Shown: positions 29,951 to 42,729 of the stretch, piece after piece | Numbering within the stretch: position 1 is the first letter of the stretch | Layout of the letters: each line of letters opens with the position of its first letter | From: Runella sp. SP2 | GTDB lineage: Bacteria > Bacteroidota > Bacteroidia > Cytophagales > Spirosomataceae | Direction: 5' to 3' | Length of the DNA: 64,000 nucleotides | Assembly (NCBI RefSeq): GCF_003711225.1 | Contig: NZ_CP031030.1 | Coordinates: 6,747,501 to 6,811,500 of the forward strand | The notes under the pieces: model-generated | Told to the model about the DNA's origin: nothing | What the model saw: the letters and a program-made list of their open reading frames with translations, nothing else | Databases searched by the model: none | Made by a program: the position numbers and the translations under genes

Positions 29951-29958
29951 TAACTTTG
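29951..29958 (+). promoter_or_regulatory. -7 element TAACTTTG for higBA
   Basis: Exact TAnnTTTG match starting right after the inverted repeat. The higB ATG lies only six bases further on, implying a very short leader or leaderless mRNA. Confidence 0.5.
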
Positions 29959-29964
29959 CAGAGT

Positions 29965-30279
29965 ATGAGAATACATGCCTTGAAAACATTAAAACAGTTT
30001 TGGGAGAAATATCCTGACTCGGAACCAAACCTAAGGCACTGGTATGGTAAGATTGAGGGCAATCACTACAAAACGCCTCAGCAAGTGGTTGCTGATTTTA
30101 AAAATGCAGACTTTGTGGGTAATGAAAGAATAGTATTTAACATAGCACGTAATAAATACAGATTAATAGCAGCATTCAACTATGAATTTCAGCTTTGTTT
30201 TGTGAAATTTATTGGCACTCATGCAGAGTATGATAAAATAGATGCTAAAACAATAGATTTTGACTCATGGAAGCAATAA
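29965..30279 (+). CDS. higB: HigB-type toxin of a type II toxin-antitoxin pair
   Basis: Expected ribosome-dependent mRNA interferase. Seen: MRIHALKTLKQFWEKYPDSE, the KTPQQVVADFKNADFV block, RIVFNIARNKYRLIA and the late FVKFIGTHAEYDKID, all typical of the HigB_toxin family (about 95-105 aa). The ATG at 29965 is chosen over an in-frame TTG at 29956 that lies inside the -7 element. It overlaps the antitoxin gene by 13 bases. The pair sits between two metabolic genes of the same orientation and its base use is more AT-rich. Confidence 0.88.
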   Translation: MRIHALKTLKQFWEKYPDSEPNLRHWYGKIEGNHYKTPQQVVADFKNADFVGNERIVFNIARNKYRLIAAFNYEFQLCFVKFIGTHAEYDKIDAKTIDFDSWKQ

Positions 30280-30626
30280 AACTTATTAAAACAGAGGAGG
30301 ATTATGACAAAGCATTGAAACAATTAGAAATAATTTTTCATGCAAAACCTGATACTCCAGAAGGAGATTTGTTGGAAGTAATCTCATTATTAATCCACGA
30401 ATATGAGCAAAAACATCATAAAATCGTGCCTCTTACTCCATTAGAAGCATTGAAGTACGAAATGGAAGAACAGGGGTTGTCTCAGTCGGGATTGGCTAAA
30501 AGAATGGGGTTGAGTAAAAGCACCATTTCCGAAATTCTGGGCGGTAAAAAACAAATGAGTATCAATTTTTTGAAGTTCATTCACAATGAATTAGGAATTC
30601 CAGCACATATTTTATTGGCCTATTAA
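30267..30626 (+). CDS. higA: HigA-type antitoxin with Xre helix-turn-helix
   Basis: Cognate antitoxin and autorepressor. Seen: N-terminal helical region (about 1-60), then LTPLEALKYEMEEQGLSQSG and the helix-turn-helix SGLAKRMGLSKSTISEILGG (about 72-91), with a C-terminal LGIPAHILLAY. 119 aa is typical. The next gene (SDR) begins with ATG immediately after its TAA stop, so the SDR may be cotranscribed and translationally coupled with the toxin-antitoxin pair. Confidence 0.88.
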   Translation: MEAIKLIKTEEDYDKALKQLEIIFHAKPDTPEGDLLEVISLLIHEYEQKHHKIVPLTPLEALKYEMEEQGLSQSGLAKRMGLSKSTISEILGGKKQMSINFLKFIHNELGIPAHILLAY

Positions 30627-31406: not shown

Positions 31407-32240
31407 CTAGTATTGATATTCATAAAATACCTTCGTCCCATCGCTCCGCTGAATGGTCATTCGGGATATGCGCCCGTTGCTATCGAAGGTGTAAGTAAAT
31501 TCAAGGACGCTATTATTGCCACTTGAAATACCCGAGGTGGTGTTTACAGTCATTTTTTTGAGCAAACGGCTGCTATATTTACACAAAAAATCGCCGCGCA
31601 TCGAAAAATGAGGAGTAATCCAGCTAGTAATTTCTTGACGAATGGTATTGGGAATGTCGGTGTATTCGTAAGAAGCATTTGTTGCTAGTCCTTGGTGATT
31701 AACACCACTCCACGAGAGCAAATTCCCTTGGCCATTGTACTCAAACTTAGTGAGCTTCGTCTCATTGGCCATGCTTACCAAAAAACCGTTTTTGTAAAAA
31801 TAACGGGTATTGACTTCACGCTTAGGGGTACTGGCGGTATTCCCTTTTGAACTTTGGGCCAGTCCTTCAGCATTCAACTGAAATGTCGTTATTTCACCAC
31901 TTACTTTACTAGAAGCCGTTTTAGTCGCACGGTCAGTTCTTTCTTGAAAAATCGTGTCGTTGCCCGTAACGATGTGAAGAAGTTCGTTGTTTGAACCGTA
32001 TTTGAAAGAATAAGTGCCCACAAATAGCTGATCAATAGCCACTTTGACCGAAGAAGGCTGTACATTGTTCACGGCAGGAGGCGCAATGTCAGGATGTGTT
32101 TTTGCGTAATTTTCTGCTTGTTCTGCTAGGGTAGGCTCATTGGGTTTCAGCGGTTCTGGTTCGGTTTCCAATCCCGCCTGACGACAGGAGAAACTCCCCA
32201 ATGCCACCAACAACGCGATAAGTAAAAATGAAGCTTTCAT
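31407..32240 (-). CDS. Lipoprotein with YD-like repeats
   Basis: Exported lipoprotein of unknown function; the last gene of the 11-kb minus-strand cluster. Seen: signal peptide with lipidation Cys in GSFSC (about residue 19), a Pro/Glu-rich linker (about 24-60), then beta-rich segments such as YSFKYGSNNELLHIV, KFEYNGQGNLLSWSG and FTYTFDSNGRISRMTI, which resemble single YD/RHS-like repeats. The similar gene at 34567-35466 shares this style. Its ATG lies in an inverted repeat (32232-32300) that could hide the start in the mRNA. Confidence 0.75.
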   Translation of the reverse strand: MKASFLLIALLVALGSFSCRQAGLETEPEPLKPNEPTLAEQAENYAKTHPDIAPPAVNNVQPSSVKVAIDQLFVGTYSFKYGSNNELLHIVTGNDTIFQERTDRATKTASSKVSGEITTFQLNAEGLAQSSKGNTASTPKREVNTRYFYKNGFLVSMANETKLTKFEYNGQGNLLSWSGVNHQGLATNASYEYTDIPNTIRQEITSWITPHFSMRGDFLCKYSSRLLKKMTVNTTSGISSGNNSVLEFTYTFDSNGRISRMTIQRSDGTKVFYEYQY

Positions 32241-32300
32241 AGAAGTAAAGATAGAAACGTTGTAGATGTTTGTTTCTAACTAAAACGCTCTATGAAAGCT
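32232..32300 (-). promoter_or_regulatory. Inverted repeat enclosing a start codon
   Basis: agctttcatag (32232-32242) and ctatgaaagct (32290-32300) form a perfect 11-base inverted repeat with a 47-base loop. The ATG of the lipoprotein gene ending at 32240 is inside one arm, so pairing in the mRNA would mask it. Confidence 0.4.
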
Positions 32301-32348
32301 AGTTAGTGTGTGAAGGTTATTTTTTTGTTCCCCTTTATTTGCTATTTT

Positions 32349-32879
32349 TTAAAACGCAGGTACATAAAACTGTAAACGCTTGTCGGAATAACCCCAGCTG
32401 CGTAATTGGGCATCACTGTACTCACCCGATACGGTGGTGAGCGTAAAATCACGGCAGGGGTCGCCTTGTGGTTTGGCGTTGATCCACCTAAAAACAGCTT
32501 TGTATCGTTGCCCATCGTTGGGGCGAGTTTTGTAGGCATAAAACTGAAATAGCTTGCCGCGATAGCCCCAGCTTTGTAGTTGTGCGTCGGTGAGTTCGTG
32601 TTCGGCTATGAGGATAGACTCTCTGCAGTTGGGCATAATCCACCGATACACTGCCGTTACGTTATCGCCGCTTGGCTCTTCCGAATACGCCTCAAACTGA
32701 AACGTTTTTTGGGTATAACCCCAGCTAATAAGTTGCTGGTCAGTATAAATACTTTCGGGCAACGACATGAAATCTTTGGTAACGGGCGATATCCAACGAT
32801 TGACCACTGTAGTTTGTTGGGCGATACTGTGCCCAGCTATGCCTGCCCACAGGCAAAGCGAGAGGAGGAAGGGTTTCAT
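32349..32879 (-). CDS. Secreted protein with three WGY repeats
   Basis: Function unknown. Seen: signal peptide ending near SIAQ (about 21), then three copies of a roughly 40-residue unit, about 27-65, 78-116 and 129-173, each with RWI at the start, (Y/L)(T/S)DxQLxSWGY in the middle and LFQFYAY-like sequence at the end. The pattern faintly recalls DUF5648-type repeats, which end in a Gly-Tyr and aromatic cluster, but I cannot confirm this. Two Cys (about 85 and 142) could pair. Lies 35 bases from the next lipoprotein gene. Confidence 0.7.
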   Translation of the reverse strand: MKPFLLSLCLWAGIAGHSIAQQTTVVNRWISPVTKDFMSLPESIYTDQQLISWGYTQKTFQFEAYSEEPSGDNVTAVYRWIMPNCRESILIAEHELTDAQLQSWGYRGKLFQFYAYKTRPNDGQRYKAVFRWINAKPQGDPCRDFTLTTVSGEYSDAQLRSWGYSDKRLQFYVPAF

Positions 32880-32914
32880 AAATGTATTGTTTTGGGAAGG
32901 GTGAAAAGAGTATC

Positions 32915-33451
32915 TTACTTAGTTGCATTGATAATAAATGCACCATAAGAGGCATCGGTGGCTGAGGTAATGCGTGGAAAATTGGTTATGCCAAAGCCAA
33001 AAGTAGCAGCCCAACCTAATGCTTCTTGGGCTCTTTCACGGGCGGTAGTACCCATGATTACATTGTCAGATGTGAGCGTTAAGGAGTTGTTACTTAGATT
33101 GTAAGTGAAACTTACGACATCTTCGTTGGTAGATTGGTCTATGAAGACAACCTTTTTGATTCCATTTACTTTTTCTTGACGATAGTTGTACGTTGTATTG
33201 CCTATGGTGACGGCACCCGTACTAAAATCCAGAAAATCATTAGGAATACGAGTCGTTGTGCCTCTCTGATTATAAAATGTGTTGTTGGCAGTGTATTTCA
33301 ACTCCAATTGAACATTGTTCATTTTGTAAGTGCCCAGCAGTGGCCAGGCGGCTTCTACCGCTTTCTGGAAAAGACCGCAGCTTGTAAGCGTAGCAGTGAG
33401 GAAAATGGCTACAAACGAGGCAGTATGAATAGGTCGAATGAAGGTCTTCAT
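32915..33451 (-). CDS. Lipoprotein of unknown function
   Basis: Exported lipoprotein with no recognised domain. Seen: signal peptide with LTSC lipobox (Cys about 25), then a beta-rich region with LLGTYKMNNVQLELKYT and SFTYNLSNNSLTLTSD, resembling the lipocalin-like small lipoproteins of Bacteroidota. The C-terminus contains a hydrophobic GWAATFGFGI stretch. Spacing to neighbours is 35 and 26 bases, within the same long cluster. Confidence 0.72.
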   Translation of the reverse strand: MKTFIRPIHTASFVAIFLTATLTSCGLFQKAVEAAWPLLGTYKMNNVQLELKYTANNTFYNQRGTTTRIPNDFLDFSTGAVTIGNTTYNYRQEKVNGIKKVVFIDQSTNEDVVSFTYNLSNNSLTLTSDNVIMGTTARERAQEALGWAATFGFGITNFPRITSATDASYGAFIINATK

Positions 33452-33477
33452 TGGGTTTATTATCTTGAAGAAATGAC

Positions 33478-33972
33478 TTAGTGTAATTTTTGTAAAGTGG
33501 CCTCAAAAAAAGCAAACATGTTTTCAGGATGCTCGGTGTGTACATTGAGGCAAAGCTGCCACAAGCCCCCTTCGGCAGGGAGTTTGCCCAAGACTACCGT
33601 AAAAATTTGGTACTCATCCTCGGTTGTTTCTTCGTGTGCAACAACTCCCATTTGGTGAATATGAAACCATACCCGTGCGCTCGTACCTACTACTTCTTTG
33701 TAGCGTTGGGTCTTGAAAATAGCTTGGTAGCAGCCATCTTCTGTGATGTCGAACAGAAAACAAGCTAGCCCGCCACTTAAACAATGGTCGAAACAATTGG
33801 GCGGATAGGGACCCCAGTGCGCCCGATTGAAAGCGGTGTAATACTCGCTGACGTTGCGTAACAACAAGTGAGATTGAGCCGAAACAGGATATTGTACACT
33901 CGACGTGGTTATGGGTGTAGCTTGCTCCCCACACCCCTGCAAATCGGGCGCGAATTTCTGTAGTGTTTGCAT
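33478..33972 (-). CDS. Hypothetical 164-aa protein
   Basis: No signal peptide, no membrane helix and no family recognised. Visible features are a Cys-containing SGGLACFLFDITEDGCYQ block, an aromatic RVWFHIHQMGVV segment and a C-terminal helix with ENMFAFFEATLQKL. It lies between an exported lipoprotein gene and another cytoplasmic-looking gene of the same cluster with 26- and 27-base gaps. It may be a cytoplasmic partner of the exported products, but this is only position-based. Confidence 0.6.
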   Translation of the reverse strand: MQTLQKFAPDLQGCGEQATPITTSSVQYPVSAQSHLLLRNVSEYYTAFNRAHWGPYPPNCFDHCLSGGLACFLFDITEDGCYQAIFKTQRYKEVVGTSARVWFHIHQMGVVAHEETTEDEYQIFTVVLGKLPAEGGLWQLCLNVHTEHPENMFAFFEATLQKLH

Positions 33973-33999
33973 GAGAGTACGTGTTTAAAGAAGATTTTA

Positions 34000-34521
34000 T
34001 TAAAAAATAGTAGTTATTTGTACAGGTGATACCCCCTCAGCTATCAGTTGCACATTAACAAATAGTTCATCTTGATGCGGTCTGGGGATTCGTTGAGTGA
34101 CGGGAGGGGGGGCAATGGTGATAAATTCTACCATTGGGTCTTCATTCAGTCGAGATTCTAATACCAATTTCTCTTCTACAAAATCCATCTCAGTGGTTGT
34201 GGGAGTTAGGGCTTTCTGATATACAACTGAACCCACAATAGAAAGTGCCGATGTAGATAACGTACCGTTTCCACCGCTAAAATCAAAATCACCTATGGGA
34301 GTATCCCAGCGTAGCCATGGAGGAAATTGGCGTGCGTCATCAACGTCTATGCCAGGCCTATCTGTGCCCCAAAGCGTTATTCTTACTTGAAATGGACTTC
34401 CGACCTCTTCTAGTGCAAACTTAAATTTGGCCGATACTTTTACCTTTCTGCACCATTCTTGATTGCTGTTTTGTACCCGATCACCACCGATGACCATAGA
34501 TACATTTTCTACTTTTGCCAT
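34000..34521 (-). CDS. Hypothetical 173-aa beta-rich protein
   Basis: No signal peptide or membrane helix. The sequence is rich in beta-forming residues, with VSMVIGGDRVQNSNQEWCRK near the start, QVRITLWGTDRPGIDVDD in the middle, and Pro-rich TIAPPPVTQRIPRP near the C-terminus. No family recognised. It shares the same cluster with 27- and 45-base gaps. Its base composition is lower in GC than the distal metabolic genes. Confidence 0.6.
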   Translation of the reverse strand: MAKVENVSMVIGGDRVQNSNQEWCRKVKVSAKFKFALEEVGSPFQVRITLWGTDRPGIDVDDARQFPPWLRWDTPIGDFDFSGGNGTLSTSALSIVGSVVYQKALTPTTTEMDFVEEKLVLESRLNEDPMVEFITIAPPPVTQRIPRPHQDELFVNVQLIAEGVSPVQITTIF

Positions 34522-34566
34522 GTTTGTATATGTGTTAGAAGTGAAAAATTGATGTAAGCCGAACGA

Positions 34567-35466
34567 TTACTCCTCGCAGTTGAAATAAGAATAAGTCGTT
34601 TTGTAGGTGCTGTTAGTAACCCATGTACCAGTACTGTTTCTGTATGAGTATGTTGAAGACACTACCGTAGGATACCCTTTTCGATTCAAAACATATCCGT
34701 AATTATCTTCGGATTGTTTGATAAAAGTATTATTGGATTGCCTTTGGTAATACGTAGATTGTTTAATCAACCCATTGGGTGAAATATTCTTTATTTCATC
34801 TGGAAAACCCTTGAAAAAATTGTTAGGCATTGCATTGAATGGTTGTAAACCATCTTGATAGGTGTATTCAAGATATTCAGTTATTTTGCCTGTATTATCA
34901 TATTTTGTGTATAGAGTGTTCCTTCCCCTACTATCGTAGTCATAGGTTTGATAGCCTCTATCTCCTTGTGTAATTCTGATGACACGGCCATTGTCATACT
35001 GAAACGGTTGTGTTATAGTGCCATTTTCATTTCTAAAATAAGAAATCTGCTTGCCATTGCTATAGTTTTGTATGATGGTATAGCGCGTAGCTTTATGTGT
35101 ATATTTAGAAAGTTTTTGTTGGGCATCGTATTCATAGATGGTTTCTATATCCAAACTGCCCTCTGGATAGGTGATTTTTGATAGCAACCCATTCTTATAT
35201 TCATACTTGATAGCTTTGCCGTCAGAGCGTATTTCTTCAGTCAGAAATCCCTTTTTATCATAGTTATAGGTTGTCGAACCACCATTGCCCGATAGTCGAA
35301 TTAAATTGTATCGACTATCATATTCATAAGTAGTTTGGTAAGCGCCATGTGTCAATAACTTACAAACTTTTTCAGGGGCAGGCTCTTCGTCGCTGCAACT
35401 GTTGCAGACTACGGCTATGGTACAGAATACAAACCATGCAATGAGTTGGTATAAATATGTTTTCAT
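34567..35466 (-). CDS. Lipoprotein with YD/RHS-like repeats
   Basis: Seen: signal peptide with lipidation Cys (CNSC, about residue 24), then repeated beta hairpins of the YD kind: TTYEYDSRYNLIRLSG, TTYNYDKKGFLTEEI, IKYEYKNGLLSKITY, TIYEYDAQQKLSKYT and QTYDYDSRGRNTLYT, spaced about 20-40 residues. Such repeats usually bind carbohydrate or form shells in RHS proteins; here the chain is short (299 aa) and has no toxin tip. Function unknown. Base composition is AT-rich. Confidence 0.78.
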   Translation of the reverse strand: MKTYLYQLIAWFVFCTIAVVCNSCSDEEPAPEKVCKLLTHGAYQTTYEYDSRYNLIRLSGNGGSTTYNYDKKGFLTEEIRSDGKAIKYEYKNGLLSKITYPEGSLDIETIYEYDAQQKLSKYTHKATRYTIIQNYSNGKQISYFRNENGTITQPFQYDNGRVIRITQGDRGYQTYDYDSRGRNTLYTKYDNTGKITEYLEYTYQDGLQPFNAMPNNFFKGFPDEIKNISPNGLIKQSTYYQRQSNNTFIKQSEDNYGYVLNRKGYPTVVSSTYSYRNSTGTWVTNSTYKTTYSYFNCEE

Positions 35467-35529
35467 TGTGGGTAATAAGGTTACTTGATTAATTTTTAGA
35501 TTTTTACGATGTTCAAAAGTTGGAAAAAC

Positions 35530-36117
35530 TTAATCAGGCAAGTTGAATGCTTTTTGAACGGCTTTGTAATCTTGCAAAAACTCGTCTGAGTAGCGAGCGT
35601 TGCGTAGAATGGATGCAGGGACTACAACAATTCTAGCTGGAAATCTTGGAATATCTGGGATAGTTTGTCCTGTACCATCCATTGTTCGTCTTTGGATATA
35701 AACAGTTGAGCCATGCCCTGCATAAAAACTATACAAACCTGGTTTATTTCCAGTATAGTTGGATGGCAAAATACTAGGCAAAGCCTGCCACCAGTTGCTA
35801 CCACTGATATCCGATCCTGGCGGTACGACATATACCATAATTAAAGAATTGGAAGTTGTCACTCCACTTGGCAAATTTGTCAATACGTACCCCCATTCAT
35901 AGTTATTGGTGGTGATAGAAGGGCCCGTAAACTTATATTGAATTACATTCGCAGTACCCGTTTCTCCTTTTGGGCCAGTAGCACCAGTAGTACCTGTTTC
36001 ACCCTTTTCTCCTTGTGGGCCAGGTTCTCCCTGCGGGCCTTTACATTGGGTAAATAATAGGCTATTGGCCAATAGCGTAGCAGCCACCGCTGTGCGGAAG
36101 ATTGATTGTGTTTTCAT
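35530..36117 (-). CDS. Lipoprotein with collagen-like stalk
   Basis: Signal peptide with a lax lipobox FTQC (Cys25), followed at once by ten Gly-X-Y triplets (about 27-56: GPQGEPGPQGEKGETG and so on), then a 135-residue beta-rich head domain. Collagen-like triplets in bacteria form trimeric rods, so this looks like a surface stalk holding a trimeric head; trimerisation is inference. The head (residues 57-195) is not recognised. It is 13 bases downstream of the Cys-rich 132-aa gene. Confidence 0.82.
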   Translation of the reverse strand: MKTQSIFRTAVAATLLANSLLFTQCKGPQGEPGPQGEKGETGTTGATGPKGETGTANVIQYKFTGPSITTNNYEWGYVLTNLPSGVTTSNSLIMVYVVPPGSDISGSNWWQALPSILPSNYTGNKPGLYSFYAGHGSTVYIQRRTMDGTGQTIPDIPRFPARIVVVPASILRNARYSDEFLQDYKAVQKAFNLPD

Positions 36118-36130
36118 TGTGATAAAACTT

Positions 36131-36529
36131 TTAAACTGTTTCTACTTCGGCAAAGCCTGTATTGATTTTTGGGCAAATACGACAGGCATCGGCACCCTCT
36201 TGCATAAACCAACGGCAGGTGGTTCTGATACTGCACGCAGGTAATAACTCATCGACATGCGGCTCAATATGCGCCAATTGGCGGGCGATGTCGAGTACCA
36301 TACAATGATGACCCGACCAATTGGCACACCCTTTGGCCGCGCACGGACTGGCAAACCGAAAACGCTGGCCAAGGTCGCGGCCTTGCGAGGCGGTTTCGAT
36401 AAAGTGTTCGTCTATCTCTATACGTTGAGAGAGTAAGTTCACTTCTCCATTCTGCTTTACTACGCCTAGTAGTACCGCGCCCGCCTTTGGCTCAGCACTG
36501 GGGCAAGTGGCTTTTTGGTCGGGTTTCAT
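36131..36529 (-). CDS. Cys-rich small protein, probable metal or Fe-S binding
   Basis: 132-aa cytoplasmic-looking protein with eight Cys: Cys9, then C63-x4-C68-x7-C76, then C99-x5-C105-x10-C116-x2-C119 in a TTCRWFMQEGADACRICP context. The spacing suggests one or two metal sites. No family recognised with certainty. The ATG at 36529 follows the stop of the upstream 114-aa gene after one base, so it is preferred over an upstream in-frame ATG at 36574 that would overlap. It precedes the collagen-like lipoprotein gene by 13 bases. Confidence 0.65.
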   Translation of the reverse strand: MKPDQKATCPSAEPKAGAVLLGVVKQNGEVNLLSQRIEIDEHFIETASQGRDLGQRFRFASPCAAKGCANWSGHHCMVLDIARQLAHIEPHVDELLPACSIRTTCRWFMQEGADACRICPKINTGFAEVETV

Positions 36530-36530
36530 G

Positions 36531-36875
36531 TTAGCGAAGTAGTTGAGGTTTTTCAAAAGCGCCTCGAACGGCAAAGTCTGGGAAACTTGCCTTCAACCGA
36601 TCTAACTGTACTATTTGGCCAGGTTTAGGTTGTTTCCACAGAATGTACCCAAACCACCATTTGGGCCGTTTAGGAAGGACAAAAGGGGGAAATCCAGTGT
36701 CTTCTGGATTTTCAGGGTTGGGCTTGTACGCTAAAAGCCCGTCGCTGAATCCATTGTCCAGCTTCGCCAAAAACTGTAAAGTGGTTTGTTGAATGGCTTT
36801 TTCCAGTTCTTGGGCTTGTTTTTCGTTGAGGTCTATTCCTCCTAAATTGACCTCAAATTTTGGTGACTGAATCAT
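36531..36875 (-). CDS. Hypothetical 114-aa protein
   Basis: No signal peptide. The N-terminal part (about 8-42) holds a short strand and an amphipathic helix, NLGGIDLNEKQAQELEKAI then LQFLAKLDN, a pattern that I have the impression recurs in small Bacteroidota proteins beside CHAT genes but cannot verify. The rest is Pro- and Trp-rich (FVLPKRPKWWFGYILWKQ). It is translationally coupled (one-base gap) to the Cys-rich 132-aa gene, so the two probably act together. Confidence 0.6.
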   Translation of the reverse strand: MIQSPKFEVNLGGIDLNEKQAQELEKAIQQTTLQFLAKLDNGFSDGLLAYKPNPENPEDTGFPPFVLPKRPKWWFGYILWKQPKPGQIVQLDRLKASFPDFAVRGAFEKPQLLR

Positions 36876-36931
36876 TGGTTGTTCTTTTATGGTAGTGAAA
36901 TGCTTAAAAAGTGAATTAAAAAATAACCCTT

Positions 36932-37345
36932 CTACTGTTTCGTCCCTGTAAAACTAAAATTGATGAAAGGGCTTGAAGTGGTGAGGCGGTAGCTACCTGT
37001 AATGTTAAGCGTTTGACCATTGACTGTAACGCGCCCACTATAACTTATACCGTTGCGGTTTCCAGTGACCGCTCCATCATCATAAAACCCTGTTCCTGTC
37101 AAGACCAACTGATATGTAGGTGAGGTAATGCCTACCGACGATACATATAAGCGACTGTCAAAGTTTGCTGTCGTTACATTAGCACGGGCATTTTGAATAA
37201 TGGTCGTGTTGTCTTGTATTGTGCCCACATACGTACCTGCCGCATTGGCCAGTGGGCTGGGGTTGGGGTCTTTTTTCTTGAAAATATTACACGAACTAAG
37301 CCCTATACAGGCGATATAAAATAGGATCAGTGAAGTCGTTTTCAT
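36932..37345 (-). CDS. Lipoprotein of unknown function
   Basis: Start chosen at the ATG at 37345, which gives a clear lipoprotein signal (MKTTSLILFYIACIGLSSC, Cys19); an upstream in-frame ATG at 37420 would add an uncharged-poor, non-signal-like tail. The mature part is beta-rich: GTYVGTIQDNTTIIQNARAN, GITSPTYQLVLTGTG, ISYSGRVTVNGQTLNITGS. It resembles small lipocalin-like lipoproteins. No family name can be given. Confidence 0.7.
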   Translation of the reverse strand: MKTTSLILFYIACIGLSSCNIFKKKDPNPSPLANAAGTYVGTIQDNTTIIQNARANVTTANFDSRLYVSSVGITSPTYQLVLTGTGFYDDGAVTGNRNGISYSGRVTVNGQTLNITGSYRLTTSSPFINFSFTGTKQ

Positions 37346-37436
37346 GTGTTCTGTAGTAAGCATATTGTGCGATTTTGCTTTCAATCTCTTAGTCGTAGGC
37401 CGACAGGACGAGGGAAACAATTCTTTTCATTTTTTT

Positions 37437-37898
37437 TTAAAAAGAAGAAACCGACGATGGCCGCAGCGATAATCGGTGCAAGACAAATTCGGCAAAACCT
37501 CGTTCGTAACGGATTCGGCTGTGCTTACGTTGGGAGGCAAACGCTAGGATTTTTACTTCGGCAAATGCCAGCCTTCCTTCGCCCATTCGGCGAAAAATTT
37601 CTAGGGTGTCTCGGTGGCTGTGGGCATCCACTTGAAGTTGTACGCCAAAGGAGTCGCCCGAAGGCAGTGTTTGTGGCAAGGTGTAGAAAGTACTGTCGTT
37701 TGGCAAACGCACTTTTACCCAGACAGAATAGCGAGACTTTTTTGGAAAATAATCTTGCAGCGCAATTTTGTAGCTTTCTTGTATCGCCAAGTTGGACAGA
37801 CGTAATTGGTACGCGTTTATGTCGTCCGATTGGTACGTCGATTGGGCATAGTTGGTAAGCCAGCCACAGCAGAGGGCAGTAATCAGTAGCGGTTTCAT
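37437..37898 (-). CDS. Secreted hypothetical protein
   Basis: Signal peptide ending near YAQS (about 18), then an unknown beta/alpha domain (about 20-153) with RYSVWVKVRLPNDSTFYTLP, SFGVQLQVDAHSHRDTLEIF and a C-terminal helix RYERGFAEFVLHRL. It lies 57 bases downstream of the CHAT gene. A different reading frame over its 3' end encodes a hydrophobic, lysine-ending segment next to an A-run; I treat this as chance (see rejected items). Confidence 0.62.
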   Translation of the reverse strand: MKPLLITALCCGWLTNYAQSTYQSDDINAYQLRLSNLAIQESYKIALQDYFPKKSRYSVWVKVRLPNDSTFYTLPQTLPSGDSFGVQLQVDAHSHRDTLEIFRRMGEGRLAFAEVKILAFASQRKHSRIRYERGFAEFVLHRLSLRPSSVSSF

Positions 37899-37955
37899 GA
37901 TTGAAAAATGGTTTCAATCAGTTAGTCGCAATAATGGAACAAAAGGGAAACAAAC

Positions 37956-40784
37956 TTATTTTTTTCGCCGCCACCACCAAACTCCCCCCAAAATTCCCAG
38001 CCCCAATAACCCTAAACCTAAAACAATAAACTGTAAACCGTCCATAGCCAAAGGGGCAGTGTCGCCGACCAATATCATTCCTGCCCATTGCGAGGGAAGG
38101 GCGTCGGCGGCATCACCTTGGTTCAGCCAGTCGAGTTTGGCGCGTTGGAGAGCTTCGTCCTTGGGAAGTCCTTGGTCTAAGTAGTGGTAAAATAGCTTGG
38201 TTAACTCGTAGGTTGGTTGGTCTTCTACGCTCCAAAGCGTGGTGATGGTGCTCGGGATTCCTAACGCCGCAAAGCCCCGTGCCAAGCTAAACACACCCTC
38301 TCCGCGCTGATTTTGCCCTACGCCAGTTTTGCAGGCGGAAAGTACCAGCAACTGCGCTGCAAAGCGGTCGGCTTGGGTAAGTTCAGACAGACGCAATGCC
38401 GCATCGTGAAAATAAATGAGCGGTTCGACGGCCTCGGTACTGTCGGCGTCGGCGTGGGTAAAGAGCTGAATCACCCGCGAATGAGGGGCATAACGCATAA
38501 ACTGTGCCTTGGTGGCTTCGTTGTTTTTTAGCGTTTTTCCCCACCAAAACTTTTCTTCTACGGCCTCCAAAGCCGCGACCGAGCCTTTGAGCGATGCTTG
38601 GCGGAGCGATGGCTGAAAAGTCTCAGGTGCAAACCCAACGAAGCTACGGTGGAATAGTTTGTTACCCTGACGTAAGGAAGGGGCTAAATCTGTCTGGTTT
38701 TTTGCCAAAAAATTAGCCGAATAAGTGTAGCTAATGGCGTGGTATTTGAGCAAAAAATCGTTCTGGTTTGGCTGAACGAGCAAGGTCTCAAAGGGCAAAA
38801 ACACGCCATCTTGGGAGATAATCACGCGTGAGGCGGTCATTCCAAGCGGCTTCCATAGAAGTTGGTAAAGCCGATGGGCCAGCGCACGATACTGCGGATA
38901 GTGAGCATTGAGGCGGGAGCGGTCGGCGCAAAGAGAAAGAAACTCGCTGGCCAAAGATTGGTAGTCAGATGGACGAAGGGAAAGGCGAACAAGTCGCGCT
39001 TTTTGGTCTAAACAAAAGGCATAAATAGCACTGTCGCCGACAAAGTAAGACACGAACCCCGCCGTGTGTCCCCCCGACCCATTAGTCGAGATGGATTTTT
39101 GAAACTCAGCGATAGTTGGGGTACTGTTGTCGTATTTGTAACGGTAATAGGCGGGGTTTGTTGATTCGAGTTGCTTGCGAAAAGCCTCAAAATCGTCGTT
39201 AAACTGTTCCAAACGGCGCTGGATACCGCTTCTTTTGGCGTCGTTGGCAGGCAGGCTGGCGAGTTGGTTTTGGAGATTAGCGATGCTGTCGCGTAGGGTA
39301 CGTTGACGTTTGGCGCTATTTTCCGTCAGTTGTTGATTCGCCCCTAGTTCATTCAACTTGTCGGAGAGCAGAACGGCTTTTGATTTTTCAAAGAAACGAA
39401 ACGCGGCCTCGGCATCGCCCGCCAAATAACTGGCTTCGATGGCACGTTCGTACATGCCACGCGTTTTTTGCCGCCAAAACAGCTTAGAGCCTTCCCCCAC
39501 GTGTTCGTAACGCATAAAATCAATCATGCTATCGGCGAGGGCGTAGGTTTTGAGAGCGTTGGTCAGATGGCTTTTGGTGTTGGTCGTTTTGTAGTAATCA
39601 AGCCAAGTGTCGGCTTTGTCTTGGATGAGGGTGAGGAGGTATTCTTTGAAGGCTGCCTTTTGAATACTCTTAGCCGTTAGTTGAGACGTTCTAAGGTGCG
39701 CTCGAATGGTATTAATTCCCCACTCATAAGAAGATAAAGAATTAGGGAAAAGTTTTCTTGACTTATAACTTTTTCCTATCTGCGTTAAAATACGCATTTT
39801 TAAATAAGGTTCTTTAGCTGTATTAAGTGCAATTTTATAAAAATGGTCACCTCTGGGGTAGTTTTTTATAAAATCACTATATAGCAGTCCAATACTTGCA
39901 TTAGATTCTGCAACTCCTTGTTCATCTTTGTGTAATTGGTAAATAATTAGGGCGTTTTTGTAATTTATTAGAGATTTGTTAAGTTGATTTAGTTTTTTCT
40001 GAATGTCAGCTAAGCGTTGGTAGTATGATGCTAAATCATAAAAGTCATTGCCTAATGTTTGCGCAATTTTGATAGCCTCTATGAGCATATTTTCAGCACT
40101 ATTTAAATTTCCTAAATCGCTGTAATTTAATGCTTGGTGTGCTATGGATTGAGCTAGTGTTAATGTATCATTTTCTAATCTAGCAATAGATTCTGTTTTC
40201 TTATCATTATCTATAGAATGCCAATAATCGCCATATCGATGGTAAATACGAGACTGTAAATCATAGGCATACTTCCATTTTCCTTCAAATGATTTTGATT
40301 GTTCACCAAAATAAACAGATTTTTTTAGTGAATTCAATGATGCGTTATAATCAAACTTCCAAGTATATTCTAGTAAACCTAAATAATAATATAAGTCTGC
40401 AAAATCTTTTTGTGAAAATCTACTAGATTTAGTGCTGTTCAAAACAATAGCTTTGTTTATAAGTTTGTAGGCACTATCAGGTTTGTCAACAAAAATATAA
40501 GATGAGATAAGGGCTTTTAGTAATTTTATATAAGAAGAGTCGTTTGTGTAGTTGCATTTAACAAACTGGTAGTTATAATTTTGTAAATTATTTAGTTGAC
40601 TTCCCCGTTTATTACTAATAATAGATTCTTCTAGTGATTTTATCAATACTCCTTTGGACGTACAAGGTTGACTATGGCCAAAGTAAGGAATTAAAAAAAG
40701 GATACCTCCAAATACTTTTATAAAGCATTTGGAGGTGTAGTGATAAAGTTTTGAGATGAATGTAGTTACATGTTGGGATTGCAA
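37956..40784 (-). CDS. Exported TPR-CHAT protease-like protein
   Basis: CHAT domains are caspase-like proteases. Seen: a signal-like helix near the N-terminus ending FGHSQ, TPR-like helices (about 45-580), a CHAT domain (about 620-910) with FTHADADS (candidate catalytic His777) and LVLSACKTGVG (candidate Cys818), then a C-terminal membrane helix with basic tail (GLGLLGLGILGGVWWWRRKK). So the chain is held in the membrane with its bulk exported; the side is inferred. TTG at 40784 is chosen because earlier ATGs (40829, 40892) would overlap the gene upstream. The N-terminal part is much more AT-rich than the CHAT part. Confidence 0.8.
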   Translation of the reverse strand: MQSQHVTTFISKLYHYTSKCFIKVFGGILFLIPYFGHSQPCTSKGVLIKSLEESIISNKRGSQLNNLQNYNYQFVKCNYTNDSSYIKLLKALISSYIFVDKPDSAYKLINKAIVLNSTKSSRFSQKDFADLYYYLGLLEYTWKFDYNASLNSLKKSVYFGEQSKSFEGKWKYAYDLQSRIYHRYGDYWHSIDNDKKTESIARLENDTLTLAQSIAHQALNYSDLGNLNSAENMLIEAIKIAQTLGNDFYDLASYYQRLADIQKKLNQLNKSLINYKNALIIYQLHKDEQGVAESNASIGLLYSDFIKNYPRGDHFYKIALNTAKEPYLKMRILTQIGKSYKSRKLFPNSLSSYEWGINTIRAHLRTSQLTAKSIQKAAFKEYLLTLIQDKADTWLDYYKTTNTKSHLTNALKTYALADSMIDFMRYEHVGEGSKLFWRQKTRGMYERAIEASYLAGDAEAAFRFFEKSKAVLLSDKLNELGANQQLTENSAKRQRTLRDSIANLQNQLASLPANDAKRSGIQRRLEQFNDDFEAFRKQLESTNPAYYRYKYDNSTPTIAEFQKSISTNGSGGHTAGFVSYFVGDSAIYAFCLDQKARLVRLSLRPSDYQSLASEFLSLCADRSRLNAHYPQYRALAHRLYQLLWKPLGMTASRVIISQDGVFLPFETLLVQPNQNDFLLKYHAISYTYSANFLAKNQTDLAPSLRQGNKLFHRSFVGFAPETFQPSLRQASLKGSVAALEAVEEKFWWGKTLKNNEATKAQFMRYAPHSRVIQLFTHADADSTEAVEPLIYFHDAALRLSELTQADRFAAQLLVLSACKTGVGQNQRGEGVFSLARGFAALGIPSTITTLWSVEDQPTYELTKLFYHYLDQGLPKDEALQRAKLDWLNQGDAADALPSQWAGMILVGDTAPLAMDGLQFIVLGLGLLGLGILGGVWWWRRKK

Positions 40785-40785
40785 A

Positions 40786-41370
40786 TTATTTATTAACCAT
40801 AACACGTACAATTTTCGTATTTTGAGCATTCGGTTGTGAAGCAATATTCTGTAAAAAATTCTTGATATTGGCCTTGTTCTTATTATTGACATTGACTCCT
40901 AGAATAATTCTTGATACATTTTGGCTAATCCCTTGTTGAATTTTTGTGTATAGCCCATATAGGGTAACGGGATTGGGGTCAGATAGTTGAAGTTCTCTAT
41001 TTGAAAATCCTAAACAGCATCTAGGGCCGCAGTGGACACATGGTTCTCCCAACATTGTTATCGCTTCATTAGGAATAGTTATCATACAGCAAGGGCCTAT
41101 CTCAGGATTAGAACATTCAACACATGGTGTAATGGTTTCGCTATATTGGGAAGAGATACTTATTAAAAATACACTTTGTTTATCGTATTTTTTTCCTGAC
41201 GACATTACTTTTGCGTTTGTTCTTATGAGGTATTTTTCTAACAACGCTTGTTTGGTTTTTGCAGGGGTTTTTGGATGGAAATAAACAATGTATTCAGTTT
41301 TGGCTCCTTTTTGACCGTGTCCTGATATACATATCTGGAGAAGAAAAAATAATACAAAAAGCTTTTTCAT
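40786..41370 (-). CDS. Cys-rich exported protein next to CHAT protease
   Basis: Exported 194-aa protein. Signal peptide ending near SGHGQ (about 20), then a segment AKTEYIVYFHPKTPAKTKQA (about 23-42) that loosely resembles subtilisin propeptide-type (I9) strands, then a central Cys cluster with CVECSNPEIGPCC and CVHCGPRCC (about 83-120). Two C-x2-C...CC blocks suggest disulphides or metal. No known family. The CHAT start codon follows its stop within two bases, so the pair is probably coupled. Candidate substrate or regulator of the protease (inference). Confidence 0.72.
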   Translation of the reverse strand: MKKLFVLFFLLQICISGHGQKGAKTEYIVYFHPKTPAKTKQALLEKYLIRTNAKVMSSGKKYDKQSVFLISISSQYSETITPCVECSNPEIGPCCMITIPNEAITMLGEPCVHCGPRCCLGFSNRELQLSDPNPVTLYGLYTKIQQGISQNVSRIILGVNVNNKNKANIKNFLQNIASQPNAQNTKIVRVMVNK

Positions 41371-41405
41371 GAAAAAAATGATTTATGTGTTTTTTTTAGT
41401 TTCTC

Positions 41406-42119
41406 TCACTCCACATCCTTCCACCCCTCTAATTTATTCCTCTTTACTTCCTTGAGCAAATTTTGCGCGGACTTTTGAGTTAACGGTTCATTTTTCATCA
41501 AAAGCGCGATGGCTTCGTAAAATTTGCCAGGATTTGAGACCAAATCAGTGCGGGTGCCAAGGCGGTGAAAGTGTTCAATGGCTTGGTCGTATTCCTTGAG
41601 GCGAAGGGAAACAAGACCCGCATTTTTTTCTGCTTCGGCATTGGTGCTGTCGCGCTGGAGGAGTGCTTCAAAAATAGCCTTGGCCTTTTGCAAGTCGCCT
41701 TCGTTGTAACTTTGGATGCCCCATTGCAGGCTATCCGTTTCGGCATTTCCGAGTTTAAGCCCGTCGAGGGTCGAGAGGTTTTTTTCGATGTACGTACTTG
41801 CCCATGCTTGGTTGTAATCGCTTTCAACAACCGATTTTCGGAGCCATACGTACCAGCCAATGCCCAAGCACAAAACCACCGAAGCTGCCGCACTCAAGGC
41901 ATAATAAAAACTGCGGCGACCTTTTTGTTGGAGTTGTTGCCCTAGCTGCGTCAACTCTTCTTTGCGGTGAGCGCGCGCCTCCGCTTGGGCGGCGGCACGG
42001 GCTTGCAGCCAAAAAGCGACTTCTTGAGCCAACGCTGGATTGGCCTTGAGTTCTTGCTCAAACTCAGCCCGTTCTGCTTCCGAAAGGGTATGATTAAAAT
42101 AGTTTTCTATTCGTTCCAT
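41406..42119 (-). CDS. Membrane TPR protein, anti-sigma-like
   Basis: Seen: N-terminal cytoplasmic helices (about 1-65, MERIENYFNHTLSEAERAEF onward, the style of a zinc-finger-less anti-sigma), a membrane helix around 70-88 (SFYYALSAAASVVLCLGIGW), and TPR-like repeats outside (about 130-220). Position directly after the sigma gene, overlapping in translation range, suggests it holds the sigma factor. ATG at 42119 is chosen; an in-frame ATG at 42140 would overlap the sigma gene by 11 bases. The TPR part could sense the exported CHAT or lipoproteins (inference). Confidence 0.75.
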   Translation of the reverse strand: MERIENYFNHTLSEAERAEFEQELKANPALAQEVAFWLQARAAAQAEARAHRKEELTQLGQQLQQKGRRSFYYALSAAASVVLCLGIGWYVWLRKSVVESDYNQAWASTYIEKNLSTLDGLKLGNAETDSLQWGIQSYNEGDLQKAKAIFEALLQRDSTNAEAEKNAGLVSLRLKEYDQAIEHFHRLGTRTDLVSNPGKFYEAIALLMKNEPLTQKSAQNLLKEVKRNKLEGWKDVE

Positions 42120-42129
42120 AAATAGCTCC

Positions 42130-42729
42130 CTAGTCCCCAAAGGGAGATTTGTATTTTTCTTTCAATTTTTCTAAACACCGTAATCGACTTGTTTTGGCTA
42201 CGGCGGCGGTGTTGTAGCCCATCGTTTGGGCAATTTCTTCGTCGGAGTACCCTTCTCCCCACGCCAAAATCATCTCACGGCACTTGTCTCCCAAGGCCCG
42301 TAAGTGTTGCTGCAACGTTTCTATTTCACTTTCCACAATCAGTTTTCGTACGGCCGACTGCGTTTCGTCGGGTAGCCAAGCGAGCGCATCTTCCAAGCCA
42401 ATGCTGTTGGTATGAACCTCCGCTTTGTTAGTCGTATTTTTTCGGATATTATCAACACATTTGTTCGTAAATATCTGAGTTAGATAGGTTTTTAACTCAG
42501 AACGCCCCTCAAAACGACGACTGACGACGTGCTCGATGACGGTCAAAATCGCGTCAGAATAAGCGCTTTCGGCATCGTCTTGGCTGATTTTGTGCTTGAA
42601 ACAGGCTTCCCGAACGAGGTAGTGGTATTTTTCGTACAGTTTATTTTCATAGAGCCGCCTTTGGGTCGTTCCTGCTTGAAGACCTTGCAGGAGGGCGTCA
42701 TCTTTTAAGACCTTATTAAAAATAAACAT
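42130..42729 (-). CDS. ECF-type sigma factor leading the CHAT cluster
   Basis: Seen: region 2 with ENKLYEKYHYLVREACFKH and DDAESAYSDAILTVIEHVVS, region 4 with LRALGDKCREMILAWGEGYSDEEIAQTMGYN and AAVAKTSRLRCLEKLK. 199 aa. It is the first gene of a fifteen-gene minus-strand run and is probably its transcriptional controller together with the next gene. No TAnnTTTG element is visible upstream (42730-42878), so its own promoter may be sigma-specific. Confidence 0.85.
   Translation of the reverse strand: MFIFNKVLKDDALLQGLQAGTTQRRLYENKLYEKYHYLVREACFKHKISQDDAESAYSDAILTVIEHVVSRRFEGRSELKTYLTQIFTNKCVDNIRKNTTNKAEVHTNSIGLEDALAWLPDETQSAVRKLIVESEIETLQQHLRALGDKCREMILAWGEGYSDEEIAQTMGYNTAAVAKTSRLRCLEKLKEKYKSPFGD

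Follow-up and report, generated by a model that had tools for sequence, protein, structure and literature searches.

Organisation of the locus

We analysed a window of 64,000 nucleotides (nt) from Runella sp. SP2 (contig NZ_CP031030.1, positions 6,747,501 to 6,811,500), which carries a minus-strand locus encoding an extracytoplasmic function (ECF) sigma factor and an exported protease with tetratricopeptide repeats (TPR) and a CHAT domain. A first-pass annotation made from the sequence alone had grouped fifteen minus-strand genes here as a possible single transcript for surface sensing, immunity or inter-bacterial interaction. The fifteen open reading frames (ORFs) do run from 42729 to 31407, with intergenic gaps of no more than 108 nt. 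The conserved core is four of these genes, encoding the ECF sigma factor, a membrane anti-sigma-like TPR protein, a variable protein whose position we call the slot, and the exported TPR-CHAT protease (Table 1). The earlier observation is partly confirmed and its interpretation partly supported; it had missed a sharp replacement of DNA at about 41389-39667, spanning the third gene and the first 40% of the CHAT gene.

Table 1. Features of the locus, in window coordinates.
Feature	Position	Strand	Remarks
ECF sigma factor, 199 aa	42130..42729	-	conserved block; Pfam Sigma70_r2 and Sigma70_ECF, NCBIfam sigma70-ECF
Anti-sigma-like protein, 237 aa	41406..42119	-	conserved block; N-terminal part, one transmembrane helix, C-terminal TPR
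Slot gene, 194 aa, signal peptide, Cys-rich, orphan	40786..41370	-	swapped block; sits where relatives have a subtilase
TPR-CHAT protease, 942 aa	37956..40784	-	TTG start at 40784; frame open from 40892
Exchanged cassette (slot gene and N-terminal TPR half of CHAT)	39667..41389	-	blastn gap against G001 and G004; GC content
Hairpin, 14-15 pairs, then a T run	40704..40736	-	inside the 5' end of the CHAT gene
Eleven cargo genes	31407..37898	-	separable from the module; outside the described system

The sigma factor matched Sigma70_r2 (34.2 bits) and Sigma70_ECF (24.1 bits) in Pfam, both above cut-off, and sigma70-ECF in NCBIfam (63.2 bits, cut-off 42.9), as the first-pass annotation had proposed. 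Its anti-sigma-like label for the next protein has a counterpart in NCBIfam NF052375 (E 6.4e-8), a weak match of 32.8 bits that lies below the cut-off of 100. The Pfam TPR matches of this protein were also below cut-off, and its transmembrane (TM) helix and topology were read from the sequence. The Pfam scan of the window genes (E up to 0.1) found no FecR domain, by which a FecIR system would be recognised. The claim of an exported CHAT protease held, with a Pfam CHAT score of 140.6 bits and a signal peptide indicated by the hydrophobic N-terminus. This protein comprises the signal peptide, a TPR array, a linker, the CHAT domain, a C-terminal TM segment and a basic tail. The TPR array in its N-terminal half (CHAT-N) gave profile matches among PDB chains, and a profile of its C-terminal half (CHAT-C) matched none of the solved structures. 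Residues His778 and Cys819 (943-aa numbering) were invariant in 37 of 37 aligned sequences, and this His-Cys dyad behind a TPR array places the protein among the TPR-CHAT proteases. Hydrophobic N- and C-terminal segments were both present in 77 of 82 full-length CHATs. The window CHAT ORF as called is 36 codons too long; codon borders given below use called ORFs.

The slot protein of the window had no Pfam or NCBIfam match, and its best hit across 199 other genomes of the family had an E of only 0.003. Neither NCBIfam nor PADLOC offered a specific family for the slot or CHAT. Homology to the slot of L131, the locus with the best CHAT-N match (E=3e-33), was rejected because 623 of 2000 shuffles scored as high. 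Among 85 other slots (100 shuffles each), L097 (z 4.3) and L117 (z 4.2) scored best and were reached by 0 of 100 shuffles; L098, which is 93% identical to L097, gave only 2.5, and so these matches were not counted as homology. A second subtilase copy sought in the same genome yielded two distant partial matches only. That genome carries a second full-length CHAT (L067, G000:C1:5460500-5480000) beside a 329-aa exported protein, which recalls a degenerate matrixin by what we take to be the motif of that family.

To place the locus among its relatives, we used a CHAT-C search of 222 genomes of the family, which gave 89 with E of 1e-70 or lower, and 100 stretches around CHAT genes were taken (one, L068, gave no CHAT-C match). 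A strong clade of 87 loci (CHAT-C at least 560 bits) includes the window, and 13 loci were weaker. Within the strong clade a subtilase adjoins CHAT in 74 loci and another gene does so in 11, the window among them; two were cut. A sigma gene lies inside the stretch in 72 of the 87. The comparison of gene order around CHAT homologues also bore out the sigma association more widely: of 79 named Bacteroidota loci, themselves the top part of a longer list, 59 have a sigma gene no more than four genes from CHAT, 35 of them on its strand and 24 on the opposite one. These loci come from Runella, Dyadobacter, Larkinella, Spirosoma, Siphonobacter, Chitinophaga, Pedobacter, flavobacteria and others. Since sigma occurs near CHAT on either strand, the link between them outlives changes of gene order. 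The surface-sensing reading of the first-pass annotation is supported as far as this pairing of sigma, anti-sigma-like protein and CHAT goes, which is real and widespread, and fails where it draws the lipoproteins, the collagen-like protein and the unknowns into the same system.

Several relatives depart from the common arrangement. In four Larkinella loci (L081, L088, L092, L106) a pair of anti-sigma genes is separated by an opposite-strand ORF, and the second of them immediately precedes subtilase and CHAT. The slot of Chitinophagaceae-type loci encodes a very short (66-86 aa) Ser/Thr/Gly-rich protein with a hydrophobic segment (L166, L169, L172, L178), or else CHAT is doubled (L168, L170). 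The CHAT gene of L053 (genome G007) is broken by stop codons and is a decaying copy.

Joint exchange of the slot gene and the TPR half of CHAT

In the Runella window genome and its relatives, the slot gene and the TPR half of CHAT are exchanged jointly and repeatedly, and the sigma pair and CHAT-C stay. DNA of the window and of genome G001 is 96-97% identical until the anti-sigma gene ends, and 96% identical again from mid-CHAT. Similarity detected by blastn stops at 41390 and resumes at 39666, with nothing alignable between; against genome G004 it stops at 41406 and resumes at 39631, and G001 and G004 show the same gap when aligned with each other. The proteins of the window and G001 are 99% (sigma), 97% (anti-sigma), 20% (slot), 24% (CHAT-N) and 96% (CHAT-C) identical. 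The GC content of the cassette body is 29-36%, compared to about 44-54% in the flanking core genes.

The same borders recur elsewhere. Seventeen swapped pairs with sigma identity of at least 85% were collected, and twelve of these partly non-independent pairs, from Runella, Spirosoma, Dyadobacter and Fibrisoma, were compared at the DNA level. In all twelve, similarity is lost between -40 and +25 nt relative to the stop codon of the anti-sigma gene and is regained at CHAT codon 361-421. For L042/L045, it returns at codon 399 for 213 nt and then only from codon 729, and L083/L115 has an additional similar piece of 175 nt inside the gap. Two control pairs with a common cassette aligned throughout.

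Joint inheritance was quantified on 65 four-gene loci with subtilase slots, using a 40% identity threshold of our own choice. Among the 86 pairs with sigma identity of at least 80%, slot and CHAT-N were both below the threshold in 54 and both at or above it in 32, and no pair was discordant. Over all 2080 pairs, 26 were discordant, 52 were high in both parts and 2002 low in both. With sigma, anti-sigma and CHAT-C controlled for, slot and CHAT-N had a partial Mantel correlation of 0.69, a value reached by 0 of 2000 permutations (maximum 0.09). Locus L090 illustrates the pattern: it resembles L086 in sigma (96%) and anti-sigma (96%) and differs from it in slot (25%) and CHAT-N (24%), and it shares its cassette with L085 (slot 91%, CHAT-N 96%), to which its sigma is 78% identical. 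Pairs with non-subtilase slots also matched in both parts (L118/L128, slot 55% and CHAT-N 62%; L137/L138, 83% and 77%), and L118 shares 27% of CHAT-N and 56% of CHAT-C with the nearest subtilase loci. CHAT-N sequences of different cassettes exceed the shuffled baseline (mean 5.8%, maximum 20.5%), which indicates old alleles of one TPR family rather than unrelated proteins.

Trees were built with FastTree from those 63 of 65 loci with subtilase slots whose CHAT-N exceeds 300 aa (L134, with a miscalled slot, was dropped from the subtilase set), and they show two blocks. The window is absent from them because its slot is not a subtilase. Of 60 splits, the trees of sigma, anti-sigma and CHAT-C share 37-42 and those of slot and CHAT-N share 45, compared to 15-19 between the two groups. 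Presence of a leader on the slot protein requires 4 changes on the slot and CHAT-N trees and 10-11 on the other three (200 shuffles: mean 18, minimum 12-14), and genus labels require 21-22 and 15-16 changes, respectively. The 63 loci hold 32 cassette families, and more than one family occurs in 5 of 10 multi-member backbone clusters.

These data can also be read as linkage only, that is, an old series of diverged alleles swapped by homologous recombination in the flanks, with slot and TPR half co-inherited as neighbours that need not pair physically. Alleles about 25% identical presumably cannot recombine internally, so that joint borders would follow from divergence alone. In addition, the few close pairs available from the subfamily of divergent or convergent layout, where sigma is on the other strand, show no correspondence between slot and CHAT-N: L202/L205 (slot 77%, CHAT-N 40%), L213/L215 (83%, 22%) and L064/L073 (6%, 52%; slot perhaps miscalled) do not follow the rule. 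Linkage leaves unexplained why one gene is split into two histories near the end of its TPR array in several genera, and why the leader type of the slot follows CHAT-N lineages. We regard it as an unlikely account of the whole pattern.

Proposed mechanism, regulatory signals and neighbouring genes

The cutting half of CHAT stays with the anti-sigma and sigma genes and the TPR half stays with the slot. The simplest reading of this division is that the slot protein would act on the TPR half, CHAT on the anti-sigma protein and sigma on transcription, and the association of CHAT-C with these two genes is in keeping with a protease whose target is the anti-sigma protein. We propose a four-gene surface-signalling module with a polymorphic input, in which the slot protein (a subtilase in most relatives, the Cys-rich orphan here) would be the cognate partner of the periplasmic TPR half of CHAT. 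Engagement of the partner would activate the CHAT half, which would then cut the membrane-bound anti-sigma protein in its periplasmic TPR region. Cleavage would free the ECF sigma factor, which in some genera may drive its own operon. Recombination in the conserved flanks would replace partner and sensor jointly, so that recognition changes and output remains constant. The sequences themselves show the gene order, the conservation of catalytic residues, the two blocks, the joint exchange and its borders; partner binding, anti-sigma cleavage and self-induction are steps that we infer, and we give the proposal as a whole about an even chance of being correct.

Self-induction is suggested by a motif, TTAGTCG-N16-18-GGWAACA, found upstream of sigma in several genera (L081, L085, L086, L109, L130 and others) and perhaps the promoter of this sigma group. 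TTAGTCG occurs in 24 of 70 upstream regions against a background of 0.02 per 280 nt, and more often where the upstream neighbour is divergent (20/40 compared to 4/30, Fisher p=0.002). Its presence in 10 genera is equalled by three AT-rich 7-mers, and the commonest shuffled 7-mer reaches 8; its weight therefore comes from the low background and not from the genus count. Sixteen genomes, a biased sample of motif carriers and genomes near them, gave 44 motif matches compared to 13 for the reversed control. We read 31 instances, of which 10 lie before sigma, 3 before anti-sigma and 18 before other ORFs or none. In three Larkinella genomes (G205, G208, G210) the motif occurs exactly twice, before sigma and before a second stretch of anti-sigma, subtilase and CHAT genes, and this two-site pattern suggests that sigma induces itself. 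Three other Larkinella genomes searched had one, two and four sites, one of which precedes sigma in at least two of them. In two Larkinella genomes (L246 and L258), the motif lies 105 nt upstream of similar 391-aa ORFs, a candidate further target.

A number of observations weigh against the proposed module. No sigma gene was found in 15 of the 87 strong stretches, though some stretches end early, nor within four genes of CHAT in 20 of the 79 named loci. The g36 subtilase-CHAT pairs of five loci (L117, L121, L122, L124, L126) have no sigma gene in the stretch. By hydropathy, 41 of 63 subtilase slots are without a signal peptide, yet 40 of the CHAT proteins encoded beside these 41 do have a leader, so direct contact requires an unexplained export or release; leaderless slot proteins would need either another export route or lysis, or else the pairing is indirect. 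Only one of the 32 cassette families spans more than one genus. TTAGTCG is absent before sigma in the window and its clade, and in 46 of the 70 loci altogether. Linkage alone can hold neighbours together once their alleles have diverged too far to recombine, so that the functional matching of slot and TPR half is a proposal, as is the cutting of the anti-sigma protein by CHAT.

The pairs without sigma also speak for a protease cascade, in which CHAT would process its neighbour, a subtilase zymogen or Cys-rich protein, as the effector, and sigma and anti-sigma would control expression only. All 19 slot subtilases that were aligned retain the catalytic Asp, His, Asn and Ser and match Peptidase_S8, and in fungi TPR-CHAT and S8 proteases are reported to activate neighbouring gasdermins (PMC12881547). 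A cascade would not predict that catalytic CHAT-C is inherited with sigma and anti-sigma rather than with the slot, or that 11 of the 87 strong loci have something other than a subtilase in the slot. We consider the cascade a possible but rather improbable explanation.

Within the signalling proposal, the locus may serve self/non-self or kin recognition. Each cassette would supply an identity protein and a dedicated periplasmic TPR reader, the latter joined at a fixed point to a constant caspase-clan protease that acts on a constant sigma switch, and a leaderless identity protein would perhaps be released by lysing clonemates as a kin-specific alarm. We hold this function to be tentative, with perhaps one chance in four. 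Caspase-like proteases and subtilases also occur in defence, and a diversifying sensor could belong to an anti-phage or anti-predator module. Two of three slot subtilases scanned gave weak PADLOC matches to IetS. No strong PADLOC match was obtained for the sigma, anti-sigma, slot or CHAT of the window, and known phage sensors are not usually placed in the periplasm. A defence module seems very unlikely.

The hairpin at the start of the window CHAT gene has counterparts: stems of at least 11 pairs near the CHAT start occur in 21 of 82 loci (L034, L036, L117, L122, L124, L125 and L133 among them), a count that enters related loci more than once. Elsewhere such stems numbered 1 for the slot start, 0 of 69 for the start of the anti-sigma gene, 1-3 for three control spots inside CHAT and 5 for the CHAT end. 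A role as terminators was rejected because most of these hairpins are without a T run, though the window hairpin has one; they may instead act in translational control.

The eleven cargo genes downstream of CHAT had been described as mostly exported, which is valid for about seven; by their N-termini, the proteins encoded at 36531, 36131, 34000 and 33478 have no signal peptide. Of two proposed YD-repeat proteins, one exceeds the RHS_repeat cut-off (40.3 bits) and the other does not (19.8 bits), and the collagen-like protein has a match under the cut-off (22.6 compared to 27.2 bits). Two adjacent genes at 36131-36875 (minus strand) encode two leaderless proteins, one of 114 aa and a Cys-rich one of 132 aa, that match no family; the genes are adjacent also in G001, G004 and G010.

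Inclusion of this cargo in one fifteen-gene surface-sensing or inter-bacterial system, with the lipoproteins as cargo, would agree with the shared strand and short gaps in the window, and with G001 and G004, where cargo directly follows CHAT and a large part of the order is kept, with genes lost or replaced. Conservation as one unit was not seen among the 12 other genomes of the genus. In G010, of the same genus, seven of the eleven cargo genes (x7, cys8, coll9, YD10, x11, x12, lip13) lie together at C1:3203-3207 kb, behind unrelated exported genes and adjoining the same short-chain dehydrogenase/reductase (SDR) and NADH-oxidase genes as in the window, and the sigma-CHAT module lies about 567 kb away at C1:3774 kb. 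The first-pass annotation had named such lipoprotein genes lacking the sigma-CHAT block as evidence that would speak against it. G006 and G009 yielded only genes resembling coll9 and lip13, about 10 kb past CHAT with other genes intervening. The genus-wide cargo search used two of the eleven genes: of 13 genomes, 6 gave a lip13 match and 4 a cys8 match, compared to 8 with CHAT-C, and G012 and G007 have CHAT-C with neither lip13 nor cys8 found. The separation in G010, and the two genomes in which CHAT-C was found without these two genes, make the cargo a neighbour and not a conserved part, and we consider the fifteen-gene system almost certainly wrong. A HigBA-type toxin-antitoxin pair at 29956-30626 (plus strand) beside the locus is present in G001 and was not found in the G004 stretch.

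Comparison with known systems

In the ComQXP and Agr systems, the receptor has an N-terminal sensor half that varies together with a partner gene, and its output half and the downstream regulator are conserved. The locus described here shows the same joint polymorphism of a partner gene and an N-terminal sensor half next to a conserved output half. It differs in that the receptor would be a TPR-CHAT protease, the partner a whole protein and the output an ECF sigma factor with an anti-sigma-like protein; those systems use a histidine kinase and a secreted peptide pheromone, and no histidine kinase was found among the 20 window genes scanned, nor was a peptide pheromone seen. ComQXP loci are described as polymorphic (PMC4408185), and their pherotypes are, by analogy, a precedent for the evolutionary pattern.

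A precedent for the proposed steps from CHAT through anti-sigma to sigma, again by analogy, is the TPR-CHAT protease Csx29, which cleaves Csx30, an inhibitor of an ECF sigma factor (PMC10028731). Type III-E CASP (Craspase), as described there, and the present locus both have a TPR-CHAT protease adjoining an ECF sigma factor and an inhibitor of sigma, here an inhibitor-like protein. CASP is RNA-guided via Cas7-11, whereas here the sensor half is swapped, and no Cas7-11 was found among the 20 genes in and near the locus that were scanned with Pfam, the part of the genome searched. CASP has a soluble Csx30-type inhibitor and a cytoplasmic protease; the inhibitor-like protein here is predicted to have a TM helix and TPR, and CHAT a signal peptide and anchor.

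A review (PMC8999054) describes the ECF54 group as lacking an anti-sigma factor and as having genes for carboxypeptidase, subtilase and CHAT proteins nearby. A subtilase adjoins CHAT in most strong loci, though not in the window; in contrast to ECF54 as described, an anti-sigma-like membrane protein (NF052375 below cut-off) adjoins sigma. The locus may be ECF54 or near to it. Fungal CHAT or S8 proteases, often fused to repeats, are linked to a gasdermin partner and in some cases take part in allorecognition (PMC12881547). The genetic linkage of a CHAT or S8 protease to a partner is common to both, but no gasdermin was among the Pfam matches of the 20 window genes, and the output here is tied to a sigma factor.

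No description of the cassette swap was found among the matches listed in the open-licence literature. The co-exchange of a sensor half with a neighbouring gene resembles bacterial recognition systems whose specificity keeps changing, and a gene whose two halves have separate histories, as seen here across genera, strongly marks a natural specificity module. The 32 cassette families in 63 loci provide material for specificity swaps, and the slot is a candidate for the input of CHAT proteases that do not belong to CRISPR systems. Provided that the pairing is functional, the locus would be a Bacteroidota counterpart of pheromone typing, with a protein ligand and a protease receptor wired to an ECF sigma factor.

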